Of a stretch of DNA of 50,891 bases, positions 1,368 to 48,998 are shown one piece after another. The position numbers and the translations under genes were made by a program. The stretch spans positions 1 to 50,891 of the forward strand of contig JAOAFA010000106.1 in the NCBI GenBank assembly GCA_026416535.1, read 5' to 3'. Below the pieces are notes generated by a model that had not been told where the DNA came from, made no database searches, and saw only the letters and a program-made list of their open reading frames with translations. This stretch comes from Deltaproteobacteria bacterium. Lineage in GTDB: Bacteria; Myxococcota; SpSt-1050. Numbering within the stretch: the first letter of the stretch is position 1; each line of letters begins with the position of its first letter.

Positions 1368-2957
1368 ATGCTTCTTTATCTCCACATCGCACTAACCTTC
1401 ATAAGCATGGTGGCAAATCTCATATTGTCTACAGTAATATTATCAGTAGACAGTAAAAATAGGCTAAATAGATTATATTCATTCTTTACTCTGGCTGTTG
1501 CTTATTGGTCTATCTTCAAGATCCTACAAATAACCGCTAATTCAGCGGAAACCGCAGGATTGTTCTATAAATTGAGCAGTTTGGGATGGACGCTTCTACC
1601 AGCGATTTACTTCAGCTTTGTTCTTGAATTTACCAAGACCCAAAGTAGAGTCTTAAAAACACTTGCTGTATTACTGTTCATTGTTGGCATATTGTTTACT
1701 TCAATAACTATAAGTACCGATCTTATGCTCAAAGGAATGACTTACGAAAAATGGGGATACTCTCATATACCGGGTAGGATCTATAAAATAGGTTTTACAC
1801 CATACTTCATTACCTCATTTGTGTGTGGTCTGATCCTGTTATTCTTATATGGGAGAAGAAATATTTCGAGACTAGAGAGAATAAAAACGTATTTTCTATT
1901 AATAGGGGTGAGTATTCCTTTGTTTGGCGGTGTAATAACAAACATGATAATGCCTGCCCTGGGCATTCATGTCTTTGAGCTAGCCCTAACTTTGACTACC
2001 ATAAACGTGATAATAATTGGCTATGCAATGTATAAATACAGATTACTAAACATAACGTTTGAATATGCCGCGAGTACTATCATTAACACAATGGGGGATG
2101 TCTTAATTGTTTTAGATAAAGAGCTTAAGGTTAATCTCATTAATCCCGCAGCGATTCACCTATTCGGATATGCAGCACAAGAGTTAATAAAAAATAACAT
2201 CAAAAATTTTTTGCTAAAGGACTACTTTGTGCCTGACATGATTCTATCTCTTGAAAAAGAAGGTTTCATTAAACTTGAGATGGAATTTTTAGACAAAAAG
2301 AGGAATGCGATAGTAACAGATACATCCATTTCAACGCTAAAAGATGAAAGCGGAGATACTGTTGGATATGTGCTCGTTTCTAAGGATATCCGAGAGAGAA
2401 AGAGACTAATAGCTGAAATAGAGAAGGCAAAGAAGGAACTCGAGGAACTTGCAGTAACTGATCCACTGACAGGTCTTTACAACAGAAGATATCTAATGTT
2501 TAGGCTTAAAGAAGAGTTTTTTAGATCAACGAGATATAATAAACCATTCTCAATCATCATTCTCGATTTAGACAAATTTAAAGAGATAAATGATACCTTT
2601 GGACACGAGGAAGGCGATGAATTACTTAGATTGATTTCTAACAAGTTGAAGGGCTCTGTAAGGATTACTGATGTAGTCGCACGATTTGGTGGAGATGAAT
2701 TTGTGATTTTACTACCCGAAACCAACAAGACAGAGGCAGTAGCACTTGCGGATAGAATTAGAATGAATTCATTTAAAGAGAATCTTCCTTTTAAGTATAG
2801 AATTGTCAGTGGTAGTTTTGGAGTTACAACGTTTAGACCGGATAAGCCATTATCATCTGAAATAGATCTATTAAAATTAGCTGATTCAGCCTTATATAGA
2901 TCGAAGCGACTCGGAAGAGATAAGGTCTCACACTCAGACGAAGTGGGTGAGGAATAA
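1368..2957 (+). CDS. Membrane diguanylate cyclase (7TM - PAS - GGDEF)
   Basis: A 529-residue protein. Residues 1-225 form about seven hydrophobic helices, like the 7TM sensory region found on some histidine kinases. A PAS domain follows (about 235-350, ending with the typical DIRERKR connector), then a GGDEF domain (about 360-520) starting TDPLTGLYNRR. The active-site loop GGDEF is at 441-445, and an RxxD inhibitory site (RITD, 432-435) lies exactly five residues before it. It should therefore make c-di-GMP from two GTP with product feedback. The start ATG has AAGG only one base upstream, an unusually close spacing, so a slightly later start such as the ATG at 1408 is possible. The gene is monocistronic, with no terminator hairpin seen behind it. 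Confidence 0.9.
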   Translation: MLLYLHIALTFISMVANLILSTVILSVDSKNRLNRLYSFFTLAVAYWSIFKILQITANSAETAGLFYKLSSLGWTLLPAIYFSFVLEFTKTQSRVLKTLAVLLFIVGILFTSITISTDLMLKGMTYEKWGYSHIPGRIYKIGFTPYFITSFVCGLILLFLYGRRNISRLERIKTYFLLIGVSIPLFGGVITNMIMPALGIHVFELALTLTTINVIIIGYAMYKYRLLNITFEYAASTIINTMGDVLIVLDKELKVNLINPAAIHLFGYAAQELIKNNIKNFLLKDYFVPDMILSLEKEGFIKLEMEFLDKKRNAIVTDTSISTLKDESGDTVGYVLVSKDIRERKRLIAEIEKAKKELEELAVTDPLTGLYNRRYLMFRLKEEFFRSTRYNKPFSIIILDLDKFKEINDTFGHEEGDELLRLISNKLKGSVRITDVVARFGGDEFVILLPETNKTEAVALADRIRMNSFKENLPFKYRIVSGSFGVTTFRPDKPLSSEIDLLKLADSALYRSKRLGRDKVSHSDEVGEE

Positions 2958-3698: not shown

Positions 3699-4979
3699 AT
3701 GTTTGATGATATCGTATCTAATAATTATCTTGAGTACATTATAAACAGTATCCCTGCTCAAGTCTACTTTAAGGATGTAGATCTGGTCTATAGATGGGTG
3801 AACGAAAGATTCTTACAATATAAAGGTATTACACGGGGAGATGTAATTGGAAAAAGGGATATTGATATTTATCCTAAAGAACAGGCAAACGAGATAATTC
3901 AGGAGGATAAGCATGTAATAGATAGTGGATTTGAGATTTTTTATGAGCATTACAGTAAAAGCACAGATAGGTACTTCGCGATTAGGAAGACCGCTATAAG
4001 AGACAAAAATGGTGATATTCAAGGTATACTTGCTGTAATAATGGATATAACAGAGGAGAAGAAAGCCGTTCTCCAGCTTGAGATTGCCAAAAAGGAGATT
4101 GAAGAATCACGGGAGAAATTTAAGGATATCCTCGAGAATGCAAATGACTTTATATTAAGTATTGAAACGGACGGTAAGATAATATATGCAAATAGATCAT
4201 TTTGTGAGGCACTCAGAATCACAGAAACAGATATCAGAGACAACAACTTTTTTAATTATGTAAGCTCTCAGTCAAAAGAACAGGTCTACACAGTCTTCGA
4301 TTCCATAATTAGAGGGATTAAAATTAGCCATTCTGAATTTGTGTTGACAACCCCTGAGGGTAGAGAAATAGTTGTAGAAGGTAGTTTTACTTATAGACAA
4401 TATCCAAGCGGTTCAAAATATATCTTGGCAGTATTCAGGGACATTACGCAGCGAAAAATAGATGAAGAGAGGATAAGATTCCTTGCATATCACGATGTGC
4501 TAACAGAACTCCCAAATAGACTATTGTTCTTCGATAGGGTCAATATGGAGATCAGTCGGTCCCTGAGAAATGGGACATTCGTCTCATTAATTATGATGGA
4601 TCTAGACAAATTTAAAAGTGTAAATGACATGTTCGGACACAATGTAGGCGACATCCTTTTGAAGGACGTATCCAATAGGTTACGACGTATCATAAGAAAG
4701 ATTGATACAATAGCGAGGATGGGAGGCGATGAGTTTGTTATAGTCCTTTCTGATCTCAAGAGTTTTGAGGACATCGAAGAGGTTGCTAAAAGAATTATAG
4801 AAGAGATATCACTACCCTACCTTATTGGTGAGAATAAGATAGAGATATCAGCAAGCTTGGGAATAAGTATATTCCCAAATGATGGCAACGAACCAGATAC
4901 TTTATTAAGAAAGGCTGATATCGCAATGTATAAGTCTAAGTCCAGGGGTGGCAGAAGCTTTTCTTATTATTGTAGGTAA
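3699..4979 (+). CDS. Diguanylate cyclase with two PAS domains (PAS - PAS - GGDEF)
   Basis: A 426-residue protein. The ATG at 3699 is chosen over an upstream ATG at 3636 because TTAGGAG sits five bases before it, and residue one then begins the first PAS helix. PAS1 (about 8-125) has the PAQVYFKD and GKRDIDIYP segments; PAS2 covers about 140-265, with a short coiled connector between them. The GGDEF domain (about 275-425) starts YHDVLTELPNR. Its active site GGDEF is at 342-346, with the RxxD inhibitory site RKID at 333-336. There is no transmembrane segment, so it is probably a cytoplasmic, ligand-sensing c-di-GMP synthase. Nothing in its own upstream region looks like a strong promoter. Confidence 0.9.
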   Translation: MFDDIVSNNYLEYIINSIPAQVYFKDVDLVYRWVNERFLQYKGITRGDVIGKRDIDIYPKEQANEIIQEDKHVIDSGFEIFYEHYSKSTDRYFAIRKTAIRDKNGDIQGILAVIMDITEEKKAVLQLEIAKKEIEESREKFKDILENANDFILSIETDGKIIYANRSFCEALRITETDIRDNNFFNYVSSQSKEQVYTVFDSIIRGIKISHSEFVLTTPEGREIVVEGSFTYRQYPSGSKYILAVFRDITQRKIDEERIRFLAYHDVLTELPNRLLFFDRVNMEISRSLRNGTFVSLIMMDLDKFKSVNDMFGHNVGDILLKDVSNRLRRIIRKIDTIARMGGDEFVIVLSDLKSFEDIEEVAKRIIEEISLPYLIGENKIEISASLGISIFPNDGNEPDTLLRKADIAMYKSKSRGGRSFSYYCR

Positions 4980-5157
4980 AATTACCACAAAAACCCCTAT
5001 AATCTTTTAAAATAGAAGCACATGTGGCAACCAAAGTAACATTATAAATATCAAGTATTACTGTTTATTTAGTAAAAATGACTTAGGATCAATGAGTTAA
5101 CTTTTGAAATAGAGAGTCGTATTTAGCACCGGGTGTATGTTTTGCACTGCGATATTA

Positions 5158-5175
5158 CTGGCACATAGTTTGCAA
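5158..5175 (+). promoter_or_regulatory. Sigma-54 (-24/-12) promoter
   Basis: C-TGGCAC-ATAGT-TTGCA-A matches the RpoN consensus TGGCAC-N5-TTGCA at every conserved position with the correct spacing (GG at 5160-5161, GC at 5172-5173). The predicted start is about 5185, the foot of the first hairpin of the candidate RNA below. rpoN itself is encoded in this window. Confidence 0.75.
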
Positions 5176-5184
5176 CTCTCAAAT

Positions 5185-5249
5185 TACGGTCAGAGGAAGG
5201 ACCGCCCTTTAGGCCCTGTCTCCGTGGTGGAGATAGGGCTTATTCTTTG
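5185..5249 (+). ncRNA. Candidate sigma-54-dependent small RNA, about 64 nt
   Basis: The segment starts about 12 bases after the -12 GC of the promoter and ends in an intrinsic terminator. Hairpin 1 (5187-5204) is CGGTC / GACCG with the loop AGAGGAAG. A short linker CCCTTTA follows, then hairpin 2 (5213-5239), an 11-bp stem with one G-T pair, then TTATTCTTT. The first loop exposes AGGA, the core recognised by CsrA/RsmA proteins, so a CsrA-sequestering or antisense role is possible; this is inference. It could instead be an attenuated leader of the lipoprotein gene at 5399. I see no match to 6S, SRP, RNase P or known riboswitch signatures. Confidence 0.5.
5213..5249 (+). terminator. Intrinsic terminator ending the candidate small RNA
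   Basis: GCCCTGTCTCC (5213-5223), loop GTGGT, GGAGATAGGGC (5229-5239), then TTATTCTTT. The stem is 11 bp with a single G-T wobble, far stronger than chance in this AT-rich sequence. Confidence 0.75.
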
Positions 5250-5310
5250 TTAACCACTTGGTAAAACTTACCACATCTGGGTAAAAATACCACATATGAC
5301 GCTGGTTACC
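5249..5310. repeat. Tandem inverted-repeat array (TGGTAA/TTACCA type)
   Basis: TGGTAA-AAC-TTACCA (5259-5273) is a perfect inverted repeat. GGTA-AAAA-TACC (5280-5291) repeats it exactly 20 bp further on, both followed by ACA. GGTTACC at 5304-5310 and TTAACCA just upstream look like extra half-sites. The 20-bp phase (two helical turns) suggests cooperative binding of a dimeric regulator. It lies between the candidate RNA terminator and the lipoprotein gene. Confidence 0.45.
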
Positions 5311-5398
5311 GGGAAAATATGGCAAGAATTCAACAGGATAAATACTGTGGTTTTTGGCACATTATATGAATTAAAGTTTAGAAGGAGGTGAGTGATTT

Positions 5399-6026: not shown

Positions 6027-7076
6027 CTAGCTCTTATCCATATCGATGTAGTCTATTCTGTTTTCGAATGTGGAGATAAGCGAGATTATCGAAGCCATTA
6101 TTTCATAGTGTTCTTCATTAATCTCGTCCCCAGGCTCATAAATCCTGTAAAACTCTCTTGCCAGGCTAACATTTTTGACTACAGGTATTAAATTGACTGC
6201 TGCAAAATTTATCATTTCGGTTGCCTCTTTGTCAACACCGATATAACCTATCAAAGGGGCAAAATCAGATTCAGAATATATTATTGGAATAGCTATATGA
6301 GTTGGATTCACTAGTACAAACTTCGCCCTTTTCACATCTCTTTTCATGTCAGAAAATAATATGGCCTGTCTCAACTTTTTCTGCTTATACTTAATTTCTG
6401 GATCTCCTTCTTGATTCTTAAACTCCTCTTTGATTTCTTGTTTTGTCATATATAGACTTTTTACATATTTGTGTCTCTCAATCATCATATCAATCACCCC
6501 CATAATCAACCCAAATAATAGAGAGAATAAAAGCGTATTGTAGATAGACTTTAATAAAATCATCGGGATGTTCTCATGATTCAGCATATATCTGTCTGGT
6601 ATAAACAAGTCTGATTTTATATAGAAAAGAGTTAGTGCCCCAAAGAGTAACATATACACCATGTCCTGTCCCAGCCTTATGAATTTTTCCTTTGAGAATA
6701 TGGTTGATAGGCAGATACTTTTAAAATAGTTGGAGATATTGCGTTCAAGGATATTTCGAGAGGCAAGGTTCGGTCTATAAAATATTGCAATTAAGATCGC
6801 CACGAATGGAAGAATCATCAATACAATGATAAGGCTAAAGCTACCTCCTAAAAATTTTTTATGGCATCCCCATAAACAGATATCGCTCTTCATATAAATA
6901 TACTTATTATTAAGGTACTCCTTGAAACCTAATAAAAAGGCCTCTGATGTGTAGGATATAACGACAAAGACTAGAAGAATTTTGACAAAAGATTCAAAAG
7001 GTTTAGAAGAGAATGTCTGACCCTCTTCTCTTGCCTTTTTTAATCTATTTTGTGTAGGCTTCTCTGTCTTTTCCAT
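6027..7076 (-). CDS. sctU: Type III secretion export gate switch protein SctU (FlhB/YscU family)
   Basis: A 349-residue inner-membrane protein with four hydrophobic helices in residues 25-200 and a cytoplasmic C-terminal domain. The family autocleaves between Asn and Pro of NPTH to switch substrate class; NPTH is present at 257-260 (VLVNPTHIAIP). The conserved EGDPEIK linker precedes it and the GVDKEA...PVVKNVSLAREFY block follows. The start is taken as the ATG at 7076; a TTG one codon earlier is possible. It follows sctT directly and is the last gene of the operon. The N-terminal KTEKPTQNRLKKAREEGQ segment is classic for the family. Confidence 0.93.
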   Translation of the reverse strand: MEKTEKPTQNRLKKAREEGQTFSSKPFESFVKILLVFVVISYTSEAFLLGFKEYLNNKYIYMKSDICLWGCHKKFLGGSFSLIIVLMILPFVAILIAIFYRPNLASRNILERNISNYFKSICLSTIFSKEKFIRLGQDMVYMLLFGALTLFYIKSDLFIPDRYMLNHENIPMILLKSIYNTLLFSLLFGLIMGVIDMMIERHKYVKSLYMTKQEIKEEFKNQEGDPEIKYKQKKLRQAILFSDMKRDVKRAKFVLVNPTHIAIPIIYSESDFAPLIGYIGVDKEATEMINFAAVNLIPVVKNVSLAREFYRIYEPGDEINEEHYEIMASIISLISTFENRIDYIDMDKS

Positions 7077-7079
7077 CAA

Positions 7080-7838
7080 TTAATAATTAGAAAGAACACT
7101 CGATAACTTTATTATATTCAAAATATCCCAATAGAAGTATGAGCATATTTTATCAAGTAGTATTGAAACCCCCATAACAATTACAATAGAGTTGAAAATG
7201 ATGCTGTGCACCGAGAGGTTAAAGTTGGGTACTAAAAGGTCTGAAAGTCCCAGTATGAGAGTTATAGATAGTGAGATAAAAATCATTGTGACAAAATATC
7301 CAATGCTATTCTTTGATAGGAGATTGAAATTTCTAATTATTTCTAATGTCATTTGTTTGATTGTACTACCTGAGATATTTGTAATTTCAGGTGTTAGAAT
7401 CAACTTAAGCACTAAGAGATGTAAATCGGATGTAAACACTAAAAGTATTACAATCAGCTCGAACATCATCTCAATTGCAGAGTTCCTCTCGTCAATTATC
7501 CCTTGTGAATTTAATACTCCAATGCTACCGAAAAGATTCTCTACAATCGACGAAGAATTTATTAGAAATTTTAAGAGGATTATAAATGGGATTGCTACCA
7601 AATATCCAAAGAAAAATTCTGTCAGTAGAAAAAACAAATCAACACTGTCGTATATTTCTTCCTTGTTCATAGAAAAATACCTGAGGGCACCAAATATGGG
7701 AATAAGCGAGGCCTTAACAATAAAAGGAGAAAATCTGCCACCAAAGAGATCCGATAAAGCAATGATTGGTATAAATCTTATTCCCATAACAAATGATATG
7801 ATTATTGTACCAAGTATTTCGTTGTAAGTGATATTCAT
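7080..7838 (-). CDS. sctT: Type III export apparatus protein SctT (FliR/YscT family)
   Basis: A 252-residue, very hydrophobic protein with about six membrane helices. In the family, SctT assembles with SctR and SctS into the helical export gate in the inner membrane. Family-like features are the RFIPIIALSDLFGG start, a loop with EEIYDSVDLFFLLTEFFFGYL, and the final SLSITLILGLSDLLVPNFNLSV region. Its ATG overlaps the sctS stop by four bases (ATGA), which implies translational coupling. The order sctR-sctS-sctT-sctU is the universal one for injectisomes and flagella. Confidence 0.9.
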   Translation of the reverse strand: MNITYNEILGTIIISFVMGIRFIPIIALSDLFGGRFSPFIVKASLIPIFGALRYFSMNKEEIYDSVDLFFLLTEFFFGYLVAIPFIILLKFLINSSSIVENLFGSIGVLNSQGIIDERNSAIEMMFELIVILLVFTSDLHLLVLKLILTPEITNISGSTIKQMTLEIIRNFNLLSKNSIGYFVTMIFISLSITLILGLSDLLVPNFNLSVHSIIFNSIVIVMGVSILLDKICSYFYWDILNIIKLSSVLSNY

Positions 7839-8083
7839 TTACCTTCAAACAAGTGGATAATTAATGTCATAAAATTATTGTAAAAATCTTTACCAGCCGC
7901 GAATGTATAAATTAATGTCACAAAAAGTTTGGTTACATAAGATATGGCTACTTCATGGATTTGAAACATCGATTGAATAATGGATATGATAATACCTGCT
8001 ATTAATAGTATTGAGAATAAAGGAATTAAAAATTTTGCCAAGATTATAAGACTCTGCTGAATAAAGTAAAATGACTGTTCCAT
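7835..8083 (-). CDS. sctS: Type III export apparatus protein SctS (FliQ/YscS family)
   Basis: An 82-residue protein of two membrane helices (about 13-35 and 48-72), the usual size for FliQ/SctS. The segment LLIAGIIISIIQSMFQIHE in helix 1 corresponds to the conserved G-x3-SIxQaxTQI(Q/N)E region of the family. It forms part of the SctR-S-T export gate. It lies between sctR (three-base gap) and sctT (four-base overlap). Confidence 0.92.
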   Translation of the reverse strand: MEQSFYFIQQSLIILAKFLIPLFSILLIAGIIISIIQSMFQIHEVAISYVTKLFVTLIYTFAAGKDFYNNFMTLIIHLFEGK

Positions 8084-8086
8084 GTC

Positions 8087-8791
8087 TTAGCTATTTAGGA
8101 GTAGATTTTTAGTGATTAGGTACCAACCATCAGATAGTATAAATACCAATAGCTTCAGTGGTAGAGATATGGTCACCGGTGTAAGCATATTGAGCCCGAG
8201 TACCACGAGAAGGTTTGCTACAAGAAGATCAATCACTAAAAATGGTATGAACAACTTAAATCCCAATACAAATGCCTCTTTGAGCTGTGTAATAACAAAA
8301 GCAGGGGCAAGAATTAGGATAGAATCCTTACCTAAATTGGTCTTTCCAACTTCGTAAAAGAGTTGGTACTCCTTTTTCCCCGAGTGTTTTTTTAAATACT
8401 CAAAAAGGGGTGGTTTTGCTGCATCAAATGCCCTTATTATATCAGGTATATTATCAAGCTTCATTTGACGATTATCCTTTTCAAATACCTCTTTGACACT
8501 CTCATACATCTTTTGTGCGACAGGCTGCATTGTGAATATAGTCAGGACAATTGAAAGACCTGTGATCACAGAGGCCGGAGGTATTTGCTGAAGACCAATT
8601 GCGTTTTTGATAATTGTAAAGACTACAGAGTACTTTACAAAAGAGGTAAGCATCATAATGATAAAAGGCATGAAAGATAAAATAACAAGAAGAAAAAGAA
8701 AGATACCAGGCTTAAACCCGGATGAATAATCTATCGGAAGATTATTGGTAGCTGAATAGAGTATCAATAATAAATCATACGACTTATACAT
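8087..8791 (-). CDS. sctR: Type III export apparatus protein SctR (FliP/YscR family)
   Basis: A 234-residue protein with four hydrophobic helices. Conserved FliP/SctR features are LLVILSFMPFIIMMLTSF, the SVVFTIIKNAIGLQQIPPA segment (consensus RivivlsllRnAlGlqqiPpn), the FEYLKKH loop, LAPAFVITQLKEAFVLGF and the final FLVIDLLVANLLVVLGLNML. Five copies nucleate the export gate in the inner membrane. The gene overlaps the end of the FliO-like gene by eight bases. Unlike FliP it has no obvious cleaved signal peptide; the N-terminus is short and polar. Confidence 0.93.
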   Translation of the reverse strand: MYKSYDLLLILYSATNNLPIDYSSGFKPGIFLFLLVILSFMPFIIMMLTSFVKYSVVFTIIKNAIGLQQIPPASVITGLSIVLTIFTMQPVAQKMYESVKEVFEKDNRQMKLDNIPDIIRAFDAAKPPLFEYLKKHSGKKEYQLFYEVGKTNLGKDSILILAPAFVITQLKEAFVLGFKLFIPFLVIDLLVANLLVVLGLNMLTPVTISLPLKLLVFILSDGWYLITKNLLLNS

Positions 8792-9101
8792 CCCTTCTCT
8801 CCTCGTTTATCTTGATTGCATAGTTCTTGCTTAACAATAGCAGATATCTATATCCTGCATATTCAATGAGAATAATACTTGTCTGATTATCTATGCTCTT
8901 TCTTTCAATAATTGAAAGTAAACTGCTCATATCATATGTGGACCTTCTCCTTCTTATTAATAACACTAGTATGAGTCCTACAAATGATATCAATGACAGT
9001 TCAGGAGAAAATGACATCAAAGAGAGTATAACAATAAGTAATGCAACTACACCAAGGTTATTGTTAGAGAAATATCTTTGAAATCTTGACATGATTCTCA
9101 T
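8784..9101 (-). CDS. FliO-like small membrane protein of the type III operon
   Basis: A 105-residue protein: a basic N-terminus, a long hydrophobic hairpin or double helix (about 15-48), RRRRS, then a small cytoplasmic domain (SIIERKSIDNQTSIILIEY, then GYRYLLLL) whose pattern matches FliO/MopB (a polar turn, then strands with a conserved hydrophobic YLL). Its position between sctQ and sctR is exactly that of fliO between fliN and fliP in flagellar operons. FliO assists FliP assembly and is usually missing from injectisomes. The identity rests on position and a weak sequence pattern. It overlaps sctQ by 38 bases, or 29 if the internal ATG at 9092 is used. Confidence 0.55.
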   Translation of the reverse strand: MRIMSRFQRYFSNNNLGVVALLIVILSLMSFSPELSLISFVGLILVLLIRRRRSTYDMSSLLSIIERKSIDNQTSIILIEYAGYRYLLLLSKNYAIKINEERRDV

Positions 9102-9921
9102 CTATCTCTCCTTTAGCAATTACAACATTACCAATCGATATTCTAACCTCTTTTCCTTCGAGGATCTTAGAGACTTTACCCTGGTTTAAGATCTCCTTAA
9201 CCTCATTAAGACTAAATTTACCGAGTTCTGAGGTGAAAACAACAGGGAATAAAAGTTCGTCGAATTGTGTTGTAACAATCTCTCCTTCCATCTTTACCTC
9301 CTCAAGAAATATCTCTATATCACCAATCCTAATTGAGTTATTAGCGATAAGCTCCATCCTTGAAGGTATTTGCAGAATATCCCCCTCTTTTAGACTCCCA
9401 AGAATTTTTAAAGGGATTGATTTTTGACCTCTTATGATTAGATTTAATTCAAATGATTCATGAGGATCTAGACCGGCCATCAATATGAGTTTATAAAACA
9501 TGGCCGTGTTAATTCTCACTACCACAGGTGCCAAGACCCTCTGAAATCTTACATATGCTATAAGGTCCGTTTTAGGTTCCTGGTTAATAACTCTTGAAGG
9601 AGATATCTCAAGCCCGATTTGACATTCTACTTCAATTCTATTCAGCAAATCTGTCAGTAATAATACAGAACTAGCCTCTACAAACTCGGGTAGTAGTAAT
9701 ATGTTGTGTCTTTTGAGAATATATTGGGCATAGGCAATGGCTAGCCTCTTTGAAATTAGACAATCTGCAAAAAAAAGACCCTCCTCCCTTGTAACTATTG
9801 TGAAATTAAAACTCTCGAATTCAAATGGCTCCTTAAGAAATGAAAGGCTTTTGATCTCAAGATCATTCTCTAACCTTTCTGAAAATATAGGTCTATTAGT
9901 TAATGTGTCTAAAAGTTTCAT
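9064..9921 (-). CDS. sctQ: Type III secretion cytoplasmic ring (sorting platform) protein SctQ
   Basis: A 285-residue protein. The C-terminal half carries two SpoA-type (surface presentation of antigens) modules. The first (about 155-215) includes RGQKSIPLKILGSLKEGDIL. The second (about 225-285) includes FPVVFTSELGKFSLNEVKEI and ends VRISIGNVVIAKGEIDENHV, very like FliN/YscQ C-termini. The N-terminal half is divergent, as usual in SctQ. A single two-module SctQ, rather than separate FliM and FliN, argues for a non-flagellar system. SctQ builds the sorting platform under the export gate and receives substrate-chaperone complexes. The ATG directly follows the stop of the upstream gene. Confidence 0.85.
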   Translation of the reverse strand: MKLLDTLTNRPIFSERLENDLEIKSLSFLKEPFEFESFNFTIVTREEGLFFADCLISKRLAIAYAQYILKRHNILLLPEFVEASSVLLLTDLLNRIEVECQIGLEISPSRVINQEPKTDLIAYVRFQRVLAPVVVRINTAMFYKLILMAGLDPHESFELNLIIRGQKSIPLKILGSLKEGDILQIPSRMELIANNSIRIGDIEIFLEEVKMEGEIVTTQFDELLFPVVFTSELGKFSLNEVKEILNQGKVSKILEGKEVRISIGNVVIAKGEIDENHVKISKIFL

Positions 9922-10206
9922 TTAAATAACCTCAATGGAGAAATCCCTTAACAAAGGAAATTGGAAAAGATGTCTTACAACCTCATCCGAGAGCTGTTTA
10001 TCACCCCTCACCATTATTCTCTTTTCTTCTATCACTAAGGTAAGGGTCACCCTTCCATCAAAGAGACTAATTGTAAATGAAAAAGGTCTCTCAGATTGAA
10101 ATAATCTCTCAAGGTATCTATCAAGATAAAGATAGCGACCGGGGGAAAAGGTGTAGTACTTTGGATCATTAGTAGTTCTGTTTTGCGTTGCATAATTCTT
10201 CAACAT
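9922..10206 (-). CDS. Short type III operon protein, possible SctP/FliK C-terminal-like
   Basis: A 94-residue protein between sctO-like and sctQ, the usual slot of the needle-length ruler SctP (FliK/YscP family). The central segment LFDGRVTLTLVIEEKRIMVRG followed by a helix resembles the compact substrate-specificity (T3S4/Flg_hook) domain, in which two strands bracket a turn, but at 94 residues it lacks the long ruler region of normal SctP (usually several hundred residues). It overlaps the upstream gene by 38 bases. The assignment relies mainly on position; it may instead be a lineage-specific accessory protein. Confidence 0.45.
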   Translation of the reverse strand: MLKNYATQNRTTNDPKYYTFSPGRYLYLDRYLERLFQSERPFSFTISLFDGRVTLTLVIEEKRIMVRGDKQLSDEVVRHLFQFPLLRDFSIEVI

Positions 10207-10579
10207 CTTCTTCCTCCTTGATAATTTCTAATAATCTTTGTTGATTCCTTAATTTATTACTCAATTTGTTTACGGCCTTTTGTCTTACATCCTCTATCAC
10301 TCTTGCCGCCACGAGTTTACTTATAAGAGTTTTCTGCTCGGCAAATCTATGCATATAACTAAATAATTCATGATTGAGACTGTTCTTATAGTCAGATAAC
10401 CATCTTGCTGAGAGATCAACTTTTATATCGTTTTCGGCAGTAAAACGGGCATTGCTTAATTCTATTACTTTTTTGTACATTCTGTTTAATGTGTCTCTTG
10501 ATAAACTGATTTTGTAACTTATTTCATCTATCCTATATTGCAAGATTTGCTCGACCTTATCGAGAATACTCGGATTCAT
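10169..10579 (-). CDS. Coiled-coil type III stalk protein, SctO (FliJ/YscO)-like
   Basis: A 136-residue, charged, almost wholly helical protein with heptad-like spacing (LDKVEQILQYRIDEISYKI, later LRNQQRLLEIIKEEEDVEEL). Size, composition and first position before sctP/sctQ match SctO, the coiled-coil stalk that links the ATPase SctN to the export gate. SctO families share very little sequence, so this is structural and positional inference. It is the first gene of the operon. TGAGGT lies five bases before the ATG, and the -12 element of a sigma-54-like promoter is 28 bases before the start. No SctN ATPase gene is upstream. Confidence 0.55.
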   Translation of the reverse strand: MNPSILDKVEQILQYRIDEISYKISLSRDTLNRMYKKVIELSNARFTAENDIKVDLSARWLSDYKNSLNHELFSYMHRFAEQKTLISKLVAARVIEDVRQKAVNKLSNKLRNQQRLLEIIKEEEDVEELCNAKQNY

Positions 10580-10605: not shown

Positions 10606-10622
10606 TGCAATTCTTGTTCCAA
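10606..10622 (-). promoter_or_regulatory. Sigma-54-like promoter of the type III secretion operon
   Basis: On the minus strand T-TGGAAC-AAGAA-TTGCA matches TGGCAC-N5-TTGCA with one mismatch in the -24 box and exact spacing. The -12 GC is at 10608-10607, so transcription would start near 10595, leaving a leader of about 16 bases that just contains the TGAGGT ribosome site of the first gene. Spacing to the operon makes a chance match unlikely. Confidence 0.65.
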
Positions 10623-47486: not shown

Positions 47487-48998
47487 TTACTTTAGCAAGC
47501 CTTTCATATTTTTTCTTATATTATATGGTGGTATCCCCATCTTTTCTCTGTATTTTGCAATAGTCCTCCTTTTTAAGGTAATATTATGACTTTTATGAAG
47601 TCTCCTTGCAATCTCATCGTCTTTTAGCGGATACTTTGGATCCTCTTCTTCAATCATTTTTCTTACAATGTTCATTATTACGTCATTGGTCATATTCTCG
47701 CTCTCATTAGATATAACAGGTCTTTTGATAAAATATTTCAATGGATATACTCCAAATGGAGTTAAAATGTACTTGGAGCTAAATATTCTACTAACAGTAG
47801 ATACATTTAAGTTCAACTCATTTGCTATATCCTTCTCTTGCAATGGCTTTAGGTGACCTTCGCCTTTTTCAAAGAAATCTCTTTGTCTTTTTAAGATAAT
47901 TTCTGCTACTTGTTTGAGCTTGTTTTCCCGATCGTTTAATGCCGAAAGAAAGATCTTCGCGAGTCTGTACTTGTCTCTAACAAACCTGCTGTTTGGGTCC
48001 CTCCCTCTTTTGCGCATTATACTAAGATATTTTTGATTTATATCGATTTTGGGGATATCATCTTTTACAATCCTTATCTTGAATTCACCATTTTCTTTAT
48101 ATATCTCAATATCAGGCTTGATGTACTCGGCCGTTACTCCACTTATGGATGAGCCAGGCTTTGGATTAAGATTACTTATGGTTCTTTCTAGATCACGAAC
48201 CATATCTTCACTTATATTTAGCGCCTTAGCAATGATTTTATATCTTTTTTTTTCAAAATTTGGTAGGTGCTCTTCAATTGCCTTTATCAGTAACTCGTTG
48301 TCTATGTTTAAATGTTTTGCCTGAAGTATTAGGCATTCTTTTAAATTCCTAGCTGCGACACCTGGAGGGTCAAAGCCCTGAACAATCTTTAAAACCCTTA
48401 ATACATCATCATCAGATGCCCTCGCCTTAATGGCTATGAGATTAACTAGATTCTCCTCTTCCGTTTCCCCTTTGAGATATCCATTTTCGTCTAAGTTCAT
48501 TATTATGTGGTATGCTATCTCTTTGTCCTTTTCAGACAACTCTAATACAGCAAGCTGTTCTAAGAGATGTTCAGAGAGATTCTTTTCAATATTTAGAGAA
48601 GATAATCTCTTATCTCTATCTTCTTTTATTCTTTCAGGTGTGCCTACAAAAGAAGGACCTTCTATTCGTGCGTTTAAGTAGTCTTCATATTCCTGCTCAC
48701 TTCTCATTTGTTCCATTGTCTCGTCTTCGTAGGGAGCTGAGGAATAATCTCTTTCATAATTGCTGATGAGTGTATCACCCTCAGTAGGTTCATCATTTCT
48801 ATATGTTCTCTCGTCATCTAAAAGGCTACTTGCTATTACCTCTTTTTCTTCAAGTATAGGGTTTTGTTCTAACTCCTGTTGAATTAGCTGAATTAGTTCT
48901 ACTTTGCTAATCTGCAAAAGCTTCAATGTCTGTTGCATTTGAAGGGTAAGCCTCAGCTCCATTGAAAGCTTTTGCGTCTGTTTAAGTTCTGGACCCAT
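47487..48998 (-). CDS. rpoN: RNA polymerase sigma-54 factor
   Basis: A 503-residue protein. Residues 1-50 are the Gln-rich activator-response region I (LRLTLQMQQTLKLLQISKVE). An acidic linker (about 55-115) follows, then the core-binding domain (YLNARIEGPS onward) and the DNA-binding domain with a helix-turn-helix (NVSTVSRIFSSKYI). The RpoN box KRRTIAKYRE is at 476-485 and binds the -24 element. It directs RNA polymerase to -24/-12 promoters, two good examples of which are in this window. First gene of the PTS operon; TTGAAA and TTATAT upstream may be its own sigma-70 promoter, weakly supported. No lptB gene precedes it. Confidence 0.95.
   Translation of the reverse strand: MGPELKQTQKLSMELRLTLQMQQTLKLLQISKVELIQLIQQELEQNPILEEKEVIASSLLDDERTYRNDEPTEGDTLISNYERDYSSAPYEDETMEQMRSEQEYEDYLNARIEGPSFVGTPERIKEDRDKRLSSLNIEKNLSEHLLEQLAVLELSEKDKEIAYHIIMNLDENGYLKGETEEENLVNLIAIKARASDDDVLRVLKIVQGFDPPGVAARNLKECLILQAKHLNIDNELLIKAIEEHLPNFEKKRYKIIAKALNISEDMVRDLERTISNLNPKPGSSISGVTAEYIKPDIEIYKENGEFKIRIVKDDIPKIDINQKYLSIMRKRGRDPNSRFVRDKYRLAKIFLSALNDRENKLKQVAEIILKRQRDFFEKGEGHLKPLQEKDIANELNLNVSTVSRIFSSKYILTPFGVYPLKYFIKRPVISNESENMTNDVIMNIVRKMIEEEDPKYPLKDDEIARRLHKSHNITLKRRTIAKYREKMGIPPYNIRKNMKGLLK

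Follow-up and report, generated by a model that had tools for sequence, protein, structure and literature searches.

Within the 50,891 nucleotides analysed here (the window, from a deltaproteobacterium of the phylum Myxococcota), a perfect sigma-54 promoter is followed by two hairpins, the second of which is an intrinsic terminator, and this arrangement stands before a lipoprotein gene and a type III export operon. The question is what it produces: a small RNA of its own, a regulatory leader of the lipoprotein gene, or the end of an upstream transcript. An earlier inspection of the DNA, in the following called the sequence-only reading, had proposed a sigma-54-dependent small RNA with a loop for the regulator CsrA. 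The most likely answer is a new small RNA, of a known kind but confined to one genus, and we lean, with a little more than even weight, towards a free-standing, sigma-54-controlled RNA that base-pairs in trans. The features are collected in Table 1.

Table 1 Features of the locus and of the sigma-54 system. Positions are those of the window unless a locus is given
Feature	Position	Strand	Remarks
Sigma-54 promoter	5159-5174	+	TGGCAC-ATAGT-TTGCA = TGGCACATAGTTTGCA
Predicted small RNA, ~65 nt	5185-5250	+	Block conserved in the relative, from predicted start to terminator
Hairpin 1	5187-5204	+	CGGUC-AGAGGAAG-GACCG; 5 bp; loop 5192-5199
Unpaired GC-rich linker	5205-5212	+	Candidate base-pairing seed, jointly with the 3' arm of hairpin 1 beside it
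Intrinsic terminator	5213-5250	+	11-bp stem 5213-5223/5229-5239, U-rich tail
Palindromes GGTAAAACTTACC and GGTAAAAATACC	5260-5272; 5280-5291	+	Putative enhancer/operator pair
Sigma-54-like promoter of lipoprotein gene	5355-5370	+	TGGCAC-ATTAT-ATGAA; 10.5 bits
Putative lipoprotein gene, 180 aa	5399-5941	+	53% identical orthologue beside the RNA in the relative
Type III export operon, SctR/S/U-like and associated genes	6027-10579	-	NCBIfam matches; same order in the relative
Sigma-54 promoter of type III operon	10606-10621	-	TGGAAC-AAGAA-TTGCA
rpoN (sigma-54)	47487-48998	-	TIGR02395, 2.8e-117, above cut-off
Sigma-54 promoter, glutamate dehydrogenase operon	L014 1501-1516; L097 ~2548-2563		Two species

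Promoter and predicted start

The -24/-12 element matches the consensus perfectly, as the sequence-only reading had stated, and reaches 18.0 bits (p ~5e-7 per position) with a matrix made from sigma-54 sites of this genus. The type III and glutamate dehydrogenase control sites are part of this matrix, and the high scores of these two control promoters are therefore true by construction. The element outscores by far every other site within 200 bases upstream of the RNA, and a promoter and terminator scan found no sigma-70-like site in the region. The full consensus TGGCAYN5TTGCW occurs at 9 sites in the 2.96-Mb genome, several of them intragenic, versus 1 site for a reversed control pattern. 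With the usual spacing of 12 bases past the -12 position, transcription is predicted to start at about 5185.

The genes for such a system are present. rpoN is encoded in the same window, as had been noticed before, and the sigma-54 activator domain gave 17 matches in the window's genome and 16 in the only genome of the same genus in our comparison (G001, hereafter the relative), mostly over the full length. Conserved sigma-54 promoters at the type III and glutamate dehydrogenase operons indicate that the system is in use in the genus: the type III promoter reads TGGAAC-GAAAA-TTGCA in the relative (L009 14150-14165), and the second control pair, at the glutamate dehydrogenase operon, has TTGCA in both species. 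The latter promoter precedes a small cysteine-rich ORF and the glutamate dehydrogenase gene in both species, and a sigma-54 activator gene lies directly upstream.

In the relative, the best sigma-54-like site over the ~250 positions upstream of the RNA is CGGAAC-AATTA-TTGAG, which scores 6.7 bits versus 17-18 for good sites. It sits no more than 1 nt away from the corresponding position and its spacing is right, with 28 bases from promoter to ACGG compared to 27 in the window, but its -12 element is TTGAG, whereas the control promoters retain TTGCA in both species. The promoter has therefore kept its position but not its strength. The RNA may be weakly expressed in the relative or be under a different control. 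Directly before the RNA and at the correct distance, the promoter is thus perfect in one species and weak in the other. Transcription and its dependence on sigma-54 are inferred; the case for sigma-54 is good for the window's genome and weak for the relative.

Anatomy of the RNA

From about 5185 the strand reads UACGGUCAGAGGAAGGACCGCCCUUUAGGCCCUGUCUCCGUGGUGGAGAUAGGGCUUAUUCUUUG. The minimum free energy of 5185-5255 is -32.1 kcal/mol (z = -3.3), a value that 1 of 200 shuffles matched. The hairpin at the expected distance from the promoter and the 11-bp terminator with a U-rich tail, both described in the sequence-only reading, were recovered by the computed fold and by the terminator scan, whose single site in the region is the terminator of this RNA; the relative has an intrinsic terminator, too. 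The terminator hairpin (5213-5239) can be extended to 5210-5242 and is followed by TTATTCTTTG. It had also been claimed that no gene sits between promoter and terminator, and indeed there is no ORF of at least 80 aa.

The five pairs of hairpin 1 are identical in both genomes, and the loop differs by a single A>U change (AGAGGAAG in the window versus AGUGGAAG in the relative), so that only GGA of the AGGA is kept. The linker, read from the final base of hairpin 1 onwards, is GCCCUUUAG in the window and GCCCUUUA in the relative; 5205-5211 are identical and a 1-nt indel is found at 5212. Positions 5205-5209 are predicted to be unpaired in both folds, and 5210-5212 are paired within the extended terminator stem in the predicted fold of the window's RNA. 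In the terminator, two pairs are altered on one side with pairing maintained. All 16 pairs of the RNA hold in both genomes and these two vary one-sidedly, none on both sides; since only two sequences carry the RNA, covariation is uninformative.

Conservation and distribution

Between the two genomes, 48/53 bases of the RNA are identical, and the best ungapped match of the upstream intergenic DNA is at most 26/54. Hairpin 1 and the linker together span 26 bases, with a single change among them. The left edge of the conserved block coincides with the predicted start and its right end with the terminator, and a block that begins and ends at these two points makes the feature more than a chance match. 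The conservation is an argument independent of the promoter match, and a stronger one; we regard the element as a real conserved RNA element. The sequence-only reading had looked for promoter, loop and stem to be conserved in relatives, and this holds for the stems, fails for one base of the loop and holds for the promoter only weakly. The synteny is common to both genomes: the RNA stands upstream of the same lipoprotein gene and the same type III export operon, ~215 bases before the lipoprotein start codon and on the same strand.

A covariance search in related genomes, which had been proposed along with the candidate, was run together with DNA searches over 195 genomes of the phylum and recovered the conserved block in the relative; the RNA was absent from the other 193. 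In the covariance search, 27 of the 195 genomes reach E 0.1. The aligned matches beyond the genus turned out to be GC-rich terminators without the hairpin-1 loop or the linker. Two DNA matches were taken as chance, one that keeps the linker core alone (G003) and one without the two-hairpin unit with terminator (G054). An exact-pattern scan of GTDB r220, which holds one genome per species and may omit the window's own, gave the same relative (DYEF01000020.1) as its only match, and a scan of viral contigs gave none. Rfam had nothing above threshold for the RNA region; three sub-threshold matches, two of them on the wrong strand, were dismissed as chance.

The neighbouring genes

The lipoprotein belongs to no Pfam or NCBIfam family. 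Two distant homologues are encoded in a genome of the same order (G002), at whose loci the RNA was not found in the 3 kb examined and no type III gene was recognised nearby. The sigma-54-like promoter of the lipoprotein gene is TGGCAT-ATAAG-TTGAA in the relative (12.3 bits). Between this promoter and the terminator of the RNA sits a pair of palindromes, GGTAAAA..TACC, of which one copy is GGTAGAA..TACC in the relative. The pair has a step of 20 bp and lies 75-76 bp before the lipoprotein promoter, with identical geometry in both genomes, and 3 of the 10 genome-wide matches to GGTAAAAnnTACC fall within 320 bp around the RNA. A third copy near the RNA is found at 4975-4986. The geometry resembles that of an enhancer or operator pair, and the palindromes are likely a binding site for an enhancer-binding protein or for a repressor of the lipoprotein gene.

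Mode of action and alternative explanations

In the explanation that we prefer, sigma-54 RNA polymerase, activated by one of the enhancer-binding proteins of the cell, would start at ~5185 and stop at the intrinsic terminator near 5250. The product of ~65 nt would consist of a short 5' hairpin, the unpaired GC-rich linker and the terminator stem, and would pair with mRNAs via the linker together with the 3' arm and loop of the neighbouring hairpin 1 (GGAAGGACCGCCCUUU). The lipoprotein gene and the type III operon beside it would be driven by the same sigma-54 programme, and the RNA would act without a recognisable Hfq and without CsrA. Hfq gave no match in the window's genome or in the relative, both of which are ~97-98% complete. 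With neither Hfq nor CsrA matched, pairing by the exposed linker and the adjacent hairpin-1 sequence is the most likely mode.

The CsrA part of the sequence-only reading, which saw the recognition core of this protein in the AGGA of the loop, could not be upheld. A check for csrA had been suggested, and neither genome has a member of the CsrA family, which does score above cut-off in 4 other genomes of the phylum; the loop is, moreover, AGUGGAAG in the relative. A weak match in the window's genome is an LptC-like protein in the lpt locus and was rejected. If the RNA served to titrate a CsrA/RsmA-type protein that binds GGA, this would account for the GGA within an 8-nt hairpin loop in both genomes, but there is one loop GGA per RNA, the terminator loop has no unpaired GGA, and known CsrA-titrating RNAs carry several GGA loops. 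We consider such a function highly improbable.

Could the RNA instead act in cis, as a riboswitch or attenuator in the 5' UTR of the lipoprotein gene, with hairpin 1 and the linker as an aptamer that controls the terminator? The constant distance to the same gene on the same strand and a near-invariant 5' domain followed by a terminator are what such a leader would look like, the loop GAAG could form an H-type pseudoknot with CUUU of the linker, and an alternative fold of the nascent chain is present in each genome. These alternative folds differ between the genomes, however; the folds of both genomes contain no conserved, mutually exclusive antiterminator and the full terminator dominates. 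Past the terminator, the lipoprotein gene is preceded by the palindrome pair and by a conserved sigma-54-like promoter of its own, and Rfam, as stated, contains no match. Altogether, a cis-acting leader seems unlikely. We give slightly less credence to the notion that hairpin and terminator are simply the 3' end of upstream transcription and the sigma-54 match is fortuitous, so that there is no independent RNA. A GGDEF gene on the same strand does end ~205 bases upstream in the window, and the weak sigma-54 element of the relative would fit. But the GGDEF gene is not adjacent in the relative, for which 260 upstream bases are available, and the RNA is therefore not simply the terminator of that gene. 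Moreover, hairpin 1 and the linker are conserved beyond what a terminator needs, and the distance from promoter to conserved block is exact.

nikR as a candidate target

For the trans-acting RNA that we favour, base pairing and any target are hypothetical. A genome-wide search for complements of the linker gave a number of near-matches close to that of the control, with no clear enrichment. One of the matches, AAAGGGCGGUCCU, is a perfect 13-nt complement 22 nt upstream of the nikR AUG, and 12/13 bases are kept in the relative. Here the linker and the 3' arm of hairpin 1 would pair with the 5' arm of a hairpin in which the nikR ribosome-binding site is predicted to be hidden, and would thereby alter translation of nikR. 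In both predicted folds all of the Shine-Dalgarno sequence GGAGG is paired, and occupation of the site frees part of it. In the gene upstream of nikR, 7/7 conserved residues that overlap the site use identical codons, with a background of 13/47 for codons 38-98 from the end and 16/27 for codons 8-38. This codon conservation may, however, serve the hidden ribosome-binding site itself, and part of the seed lies within the stem of hairpin 1. The site was also picked post hoc among few matches, and a handful of the 31,514 background windows equal its duplex energy (-26); chance alone should therefore give about one site of this kind over all starts. nikR is a weak lead and the 13-nt complement could be chance; as a special case of the preferred explanation, an action on nikR is doubtful. 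Less probable still is a new family of small RNAs, limited to one genus without recognisable Hfq or CsrA, that opens the nikR hairpin and so connects a metal regulator with the sigma-54 signal common to the lipoprotein gene and the type III operon.

The hairpin over the nikR ribosome-binding site is predicted in both species (L056, L118). It extends into the end of a lipase-like gene, in whose last codons there is no synonymous change. It may itself serve translational coupling or be a regulatory element.

Comparison with known small RNAs

Small RNAs driven by sigma-54 are already known as a kind, as the sequence-only reading said, but its statement that this RNA matches nothing known was too strong: the closest known kind are sigma-54-dependent small RNAs such as Pxr of the myxobacteria. 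If transcribed as predicted, the RNA would define a new family in a little-studied lineage without recognisable Hfq and CsrA. With its place in a sigma-54 programme and beside a type III export operon, it would be an example of how RNA control is added to sigma-54 programmes in such bacteria.

Pxr has a predicted sigma-54 promoter with an upstream enhancer region and a 108-nt gene with three stem-loops; on one side of it is nla19, which encodes a sigma-54 response regulator, and on the other a gene for NADH dehydrogenase (PMC5684412, PMC5568312). Like Pxr, the RNA described here is short and intergenic, has a predicted sigma-54 promoter with an enhancer region upstream and folds into stem-loops, and it is chiefly the first part that is conserved. 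Unlike Pxr, it has two hairpins in ~65 nt, and it stands next to a GGDEF gene, a lipoprotein gene and the type III operon, with no activator gene adjacent. DNA and covariance-model searches gave no convincing match between Pxr and this RNA in the 195 genomes of the phylum, among which a carrier of pxr is not certain.

The Qrr RNAs of Vibrio have sigma-54 promoters, compact stem-loops and intrinsic terminators, act in trans and depend on Hfq and LuxO. The RNA shares with them the sigma-54 promoter, the stem-loops with an intrinsic terminator and, in the preferred explanation, the action in trans, but neither genome has an Hfq match and the RNA has no match in Rfam. With CsrB, RsmY and RsmZ it has in common a GGA in a hairpin loop, but there is a single such loop, in a genome without CsrA.

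CJnc230 (FlmE) of Campylobacter jejuni is linked to RpoN and arises by processing of the flgE mRNA; an additional RpoD promoter lies downstream of that gene (PMC11187230). Like the predicted RNA described here, it is an RpoN-linked small RNA beside type III-type export genes, those of the flagellum in C. jejuni, but in the window a promoter sits directly before the RNA. By analogy, and without claiming membership in the Pxr or CJnc230 family, we suggest that it works like the known sigma-54-dependent small RNAs.
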